A DNA stretch of 46,295 bases, taken from Chloroflexota bacterium (GTDB taxonomy: Bacteria; Chloroflexota; Limnocylindria; P2-11E). The notes below the pieces were generated by a model, which made no database searches, had not been told where the DNA came from, and worked only from the letters and a program-made list of their open reading frames with translations. Numbering within the stretch: the first letter of the stretch is position 1; each line of letters begins with the position of its first letter. The stretch is from assembly GCA_005889275.1 (NCBI GenBank), contig VBFI01000050.1:1-46295 (forward strand), read 5' to 3'. The position numbers were made by a program, and so were the translations under genes. Below, piece by piece: positions 7,748-7,783 of this stretch.

Positions 7748-7783
7748 CCTTTAAGGACCGGTCCTGCGAGGCCGGGAAGGGAG
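7748..7783 (+). promoter_or_regulatory. PyrR-binding RNA loop overlapping the pyrR ribosome site
   Basis: The leader reads CCUU-UAAGGA then CCGG-U-CC, loop UGCGA, GG-CCGG, then G and AAGG. The core GGUCCUGCGAGGCC fits the known PyrR recognition consensus ARUCCNGNGAGGYU at all internal positions. The lower stem pairs CCUU (7748-7751) with AAGG (7777-7780), as in Bacillus pyr leaders. The upper stem pairs CCGG with CCGG (bulged U) and CC with GG. The paired AAGG is part of the Shine-Dalgarno GGGAAGGGAG (7774-7783), so PyrR bound with UMP would hide the ribosome site. That points to translational repression, as proposed for mycobacteria, rather than attenuation: I see no terminator stem between the loop and the gene. 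Motif match is seen; mode of action is inferred. Confidence 0.8.

Follow-up and report, generated by a model that had tools for sequence, protein, structure and literature searches.

We report a complete predicted PyrR-binding RNA loop located on the ribosome-binding site of pyrR, the first gene of the pyr operon, in a 46,295-nucleotide stretch of DNA from a Chloroflexota bacterium (contig VBFI01000050.1; hereafter the window). Sequence analysis confirmed this prediction for positions 7748-7780, and the leader is in all probability (roughly 85%) a translational operator through which PyrR would repress its own synthesis at the ribosome site. A loop on the ribosome site is a known type of feedback switch; here it extends across a whole class and is combined with an unusual predicted ACG start codon of pyrR shared within the genus. 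Translational PyrR control, which has been described experimentally in mycobacteria, is suggested as the rule in a class of uncultured Chloroflexota. The features of the leader and the operon are listed in Table 1.

Table 1. Features of the pyrR leader and the pyr operon, in coordinates of the window
Feature	Position	Strand	Evidence
-10-like hexamer TAAACT	7732..7737	+	sequence; TATACT at a similar position in many relatives
PyrR-binding loop (predicted)	7748..7780	+	Rfam alignment, fold, upper-stem covariation (27 sequences), model R1
Loop lower stem, CCTT with AAGG, plus U7752.G7776	7748-7751/7777-7780	+	
Loop internal bulge	7753-7757	+	
Loop upper stem	7758-7763/7770-7775	+	
Loop core GGTCCTGCGAGGCC	7760-7773	+	sequence
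Loop terminal loop CUGCGA	7764-7769	+	
Shine-Dalgarno AAGGGAG	7777..7783	+	sequence; relatives with the same overlap
ACG start codon of pyrR (predicted)	7790..7792	+	homologous codons, no canonical start, control genes
pyrR, bifunctional regulator/uracil phosphoribosyltransferase, 178 aa	7790..8326	+	phmmer, NF003549, codon differences
pyrB, aspartate carbamoyltransferase	8323..9279	+	NF002032, 353 bits
pyrC, dihydroorotase; start approximate	9276..10484	+	TIGR00857, 348.7 bits
carA, carbamoyl-phosphate synthase small chain	10537..11667	+	PF00988, PF00117; conserved ATG at 10537
carB, carbamoyl-phosphate synthase large chain	11942..15196	+	PF02786, PF25596, PF02787, PF02142

Structure of the predicted PyrR loop

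The first-pass annotation had described a 36-base leader (7748-7783) carrying the PyrR core and a CCUU/AAGG lower stem, and its sequence and coordinates were found to be correct. The core GGUCCNGNGAGGCC forms a hairpin with the conserved terminal loop, the bulge and the lower stem of a PyrR loop. The sharing of this stem with the Shine-Dalgarno sequence, also proposed earlier, was borne out, as AAGG (7777-7780) is the 3' strand of the lower stem and opens the AAGGGAG of the ribosome site. The loop thus overlaps the Shine-Dalgarno sequence of the first pyr gene, as in an operator of the Mycobacterium smegmatis type. When 7748-7783 was folded alone, exactly the proposed hairpin was formed (-13.0 kcal/mol); this energy was not unusual in comparison with shuffled sequences and the z-scores were uninformative, so that fold energy alone is no evidence.

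Judged from the position of the -10-like hexamer, the transcript would start near 7743-7744, a few bases 5' of the loop, which probably gives a leader of about 45 bases with little beyond the PyrR loop. The consensus promoter scan of the window did not report the hexamer, and no -35 element was recognised for it.

The expectation of a match to the Rfam PyrR model (RF00515) held in part: the window loop does match, at 23.6 bits, which is below the gathering score of 54 bits for the family. No element in the window was found by Rfam at the gathering threshold, and the loop is not classed as a complete RF00515 attenuator, since its score lies below that threshold. The model comprises 115 positions and includes the attenuator part, the absence of which here accounts for the low score and fits the translational reading. 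Within the 2.78 Mb genome, the window site was the sole RF00515 match at E<=1, and it lies directly 5' of pyrR. The bare core motif is not rare in this GC-rich genome and is uninformative by itself, with four matches compared with four for a reversed-pattern control; the lower stem flanks the core at the pyr leader only, and the other three core matches are without it. A whole-loop model built from relatives (R1) gave 60.1 bits at the window and a single match in the genome; as R1 includes the window's own loop, the score is partly circular, whereas the uniqueness is not.

Conservation and covariation

The collection used for comparison consisted of 29 genomes of the order and 177 of the class. 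The loop was found on the Shine-Dalgarno sequence in 26/26 order members with a readable leader, that is, in 25/25 members of the family (the window included in both counts) and in one genome of the sister family, and in every one of these leaders the AAGG of the Shine-Dalgarno sequence forms the lower-stem strand. Most family leaders have 28-32 bases between the core and the aligned start codon; L018 and L022 align further from the core, their PyrR beginning earlier. In family f5 the upper stem is altered to GCGGTC/GGCCGC and the loop is kept.

Covariation was analysed in 27 diverse PyrR loops spanning this class to Firmicutes and Omnitrophota; alignment A1, which misplaced the bulge in one family, was kept out of the pair counts. 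The upper stem was paired in 162/162 cells (100%) with 21 compensatory both-side changes, a covariation reached by none of 500 shuffles, and slid control structures paired in 54% or less. The compensatory changes anticipated in relatives were therefore present for the upper stem; the lower stem is nearly invariant and is backed by conservation, the covariation covering the upper stem only. Together, conservation and covariation place the element far beyond chance.

It is very improbable that the structure is a PyrR-independent hairpin, sequestering the Shine-Dalgarno sequence generically or stabilising the mRNA, with PyrR acting solely as a uracil phosphoribosyltransferase. PyrR proteins are indeed enzymes too, and the binding of PyrR here is a prediction, but the loop sequence GGYCC..GAGGC is kept while the stem bases covary, and it matches loops that precede pyr genes in Firmicutes, Thermus/Meiothermus, Omnitrophota and others.

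Some leaders within the collection depart from this pattern. Three class members (L127, L143 and L169) have no loop before pyrR, which looks leaderless in them. A promoter-like hexamer with a loop occurs elsewhere in L285 (genome G158) and L286 (G156), in G158 just after pyrR. In one genus member (L010, G007:C23), pyrR starts at residue 15 and is preceded by unrelated DNA with no loop, possibly because of an assembly break or a rearrangement. Family f4 leaders from genomes of about 1.1 Mb (L174-L180, L184, L191) contain a degenerate hairpin around GTGGTCGGCAGAGATCGGCCGGC immediately 5' of pyrR, which may be a PyrR loop that has decayed or been altered.

The pyrR gene and the pyr operon

The operon has the order pyrR-pyrB-pyrC-carA-carB, with pyrK and pyrD further on. 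The pyrR product matched the NCBIfam equivalog NF003549 at 234.9 bits (cut-off 138), which assigns it to the PyrR family, and the phmmer comparison with the solved PyrR 1ufr gave an E value of 8.9e-63. The protein retains the PRPP motif, the TRIAHE stretch and a further 15-residue stretch, the latter two of which we take to hold residues implicated in RNA binding. Between pyrR and each relative of the genus, 46-62 codon differences are synonymous and 12-25 non-synonymous, and this synonymous excess indicates that the protein is under selection. The ATG of pyrB overlaps the stop codon of pyrR as ATGA (8323-8326), an overlap not kept in all relatives, and the start of pyrC possibly overlaps the stop of pyrB as GTGA.

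The start codon of pyrR

The first-pass annotation is extended here by the ACG start of pyrR and the absence of ATG, GTG and TTG at that place. Translation of pyrR is predicted to begin at this ACG. The 6 bases between AAGGGAG and the ACG at 7790 are a spacing right for initiation, and the loop ends 9 bases from this codon. The 174 bases of the window that follow the ACG contain no ATG, GTG or TTG, whatever the frame. Nine of the ten species of the genus have ACG at the homologous position and the tenth has GTA; CTG stands there in L012, L013, L014, L019 and L027, and several sister genera have ATG, GTG or TTG. An ATG lies two codons downstream of this position in L004, L012 and L014. From the upstream stop to codon 8, the reading frame is devoid of canonical starts in ACG leaders L003, L006, L007 and L011, and likewise in CTG leaders L013, L019 and L027. 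Neighbouring genes served as the control: in 20 relatives, their conserved beginnings carry canonical starts, a CTG in a galT being the single exception. Initiation at the ACG of codon 3 instead of codon 1 is also conceivable.

There is very little likelihood that pyrR starts instead at an in-frame upstream GTG or ATG (7583, 7694 or 7706) and is read through the loop. The frame of the window is open to codon -75 and holds four canonical starts, but relatives have close in-frame stops (L006 at codon -12, L003 at -21, L011 at -28) and no intervening canonical start, the stop of L006 being the TAA of the loop itself. The candidate starts moreover lie antisense inside a divergent M23 peptidase gene, and the Shine-Dalgarno sequence points at the ACG.

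An unusual initiator tRNA reading ACG was considered and rejected, as the initiator has a CAU anticodon and the usual GGG/CCC stem; the Thr-CGU tRNA resembles an elongator. A Nudix gene (6011-6751) was likewise rejected as a second gene without a canonical start: it has GTG/ATG at codon -5, and the earlier absence was an artefact of start placement. In relatives, a conserved CTATTGAC occurs upstream of the GTG/ATG start of this gene and resembles a -35 element belonging to a leaderless transcript.

Reporter measurements in E. coli put TTT, GTT, ACG and TAA starts at 0.1-1.5% of ATG (PMC6925171), and the need to make enough PyrR from so weak a codon counts against the proposed reading. The literature found on bacterial ACG starts dealt largely with organelles, viruses and engineered systems. 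If true, a start of this kind that is natural, conserved and linked to autoregulation would be very unusual in bacteria. Together with the normal initiator tRNA and the ordinary starts of the neighbouring genes, the conserved ACG offers a testable case for the role of start-codon strength in a feedback circuit. Gene finders limited to ATG, GTG and TTG will miscall pyrR in the genus of the window.

Mode of control

The earlier claims that the leader has no attenuator stem, and that it points to translational autorepression in a GC-rich lineage outside Bacillus, here Chloroflexota, were both supported, with repression by PyrR-UMP as the predicted mechanism. No intrinsic terminator and no terminator/antiterminator pair, the mark of a Bacillus-type attenuator, was found in 7600-7950, and TTTTT was present in the last 110 bases of 0/77 leaders from other families of the class. 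These two absences, the overlap of loop and Shine-Dalgarno sequence and the short gap between loop and start are the grounds for the translational reading. Bacillus-like transcription attenuation, in which the loop would act as anti-antiterminator and PyrR binding would release a terminator before pyrR, is how PyrR loops are best known to work and the apparent mode in Chloroflexota of other classes, where a loop is followed by a terminator (L233, L242, L246), but it is extremely unlikely here, with merely 9 bases between loop and start, a loop that overlaps the Shine-Dalgarno sequence instead, and neither a terminator in the leader nor a T-run in the 77 class leaders.

We infer from the sequence a translational mechanism as follows. 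When UMP is plentiful, PyrR-UMP would bind the loop and lock the CCUU/AAGG lower stem, which would hide the AAGG of the Shine-Dalgarno sequence and prevent ribosomes from starting pyrR. Expression of the downstream pyr genes would fall as well, through coupling at tight junctions, such as the ATGA at pyrR/pyrB, and through lost translation along the message. At low UMP, the weak lower stem of four pairs would open and pyrR would be translated from its poor ACG codon. The poor codon would limit the amount of repressor, and may make initiation slow enough for PyrR to compete.

The pyr genes of M. smegmatis are reportedly subject to PyrR-dependent translational repression. The arrangement there is the same in that a PyrR loop lies in a short leader at the pyrR ribosome site, without an attenuator, and the mode is translational, as predicted here from sequence; the window differs in its phylum, Chloroflexota, and in the ACG or CTG start of its family, and the sister family in its mini-ORF relay and tandem loops (see below). 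With the Bacillus-type PyrR attenuator (RF00515), the element shares a protein-binding loop, the core GGUCC..GAGGCC and the CCUU/AAGG lower stem, but it has no antiterminator or terminator, scores below the gathering threshold and would act on the Shine-Dalgarno sequence. Retention of attenuators in other Chloroflexota classes makes the switch of mode traceable within one phylum. Autocontrol through a start codon is described for infC (IF3) of Escherichia coli, which has an AUU start (Butler et al. 1987, as cited in PMC9845219). In both cases a regulator gene has an autoregulated leader and begins with a poor codon; the start codon is the sensor in infC, whereas in pyrR the RNA loop would be the sensor and the poor codon would set strength only.

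Variants within the class and phylum

In the sister family f3, the distance between loop and pyrR exceeds 20 bases in 26 leaders. In 25 of these 26 (L112-L116, L118, L119, L121, L124, L130, L132, L139, L144, L146, L147, L149, L150, L154, L157, L160, L162, L170, L185, L186 and L188), a mini-ORF of 7-29 codons begins 0-13 bases downstream of the loop's Shine-Dalgarno sequence, and its stop overlaps with the start of pyrR, in nearly every case as ATGA or GTGA; by our estimate, reading frame alone would lead one to expect about one third. The mini-ORFs vary in length while the junction is constant, which argues for translational coupling, and the mini-ORF is likely a translational relay to pyrR. 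Six short leaders (L113-L116, L118, L119) each contain a tandem pair of PyrR-loop-like hairpins, of which the second lies on the Shine-Dalgarno sequence. All of these variants are located at the ribosome site, and they strengthen the ribosome-site reading of the window.

The overall picture tilts modestly towards a course in which PyrR control in the class moved from attenuation to gating of the ribosome site. Initiation would then have been tuned, by the genus-wide ACG (CTG in sister genera) and, in f3, by a mini-ORF that took over the gated site and passes ribosomes to pyrR by stop-start overlap.

Further loops were observed on the ribosome sites of other genes, namely carA in L238 and one other gene in L290, which suggests a multi-operon translational PyrR regulon in some class members. 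In another Chloroflexota family (L240, L244, L245), pyrB is preceded by the loop, after which come GGAGG or GGAGA, TTTTTT and CATG; this loop might be both a terminator and a mask of the Shine-Dalgarno sequence.
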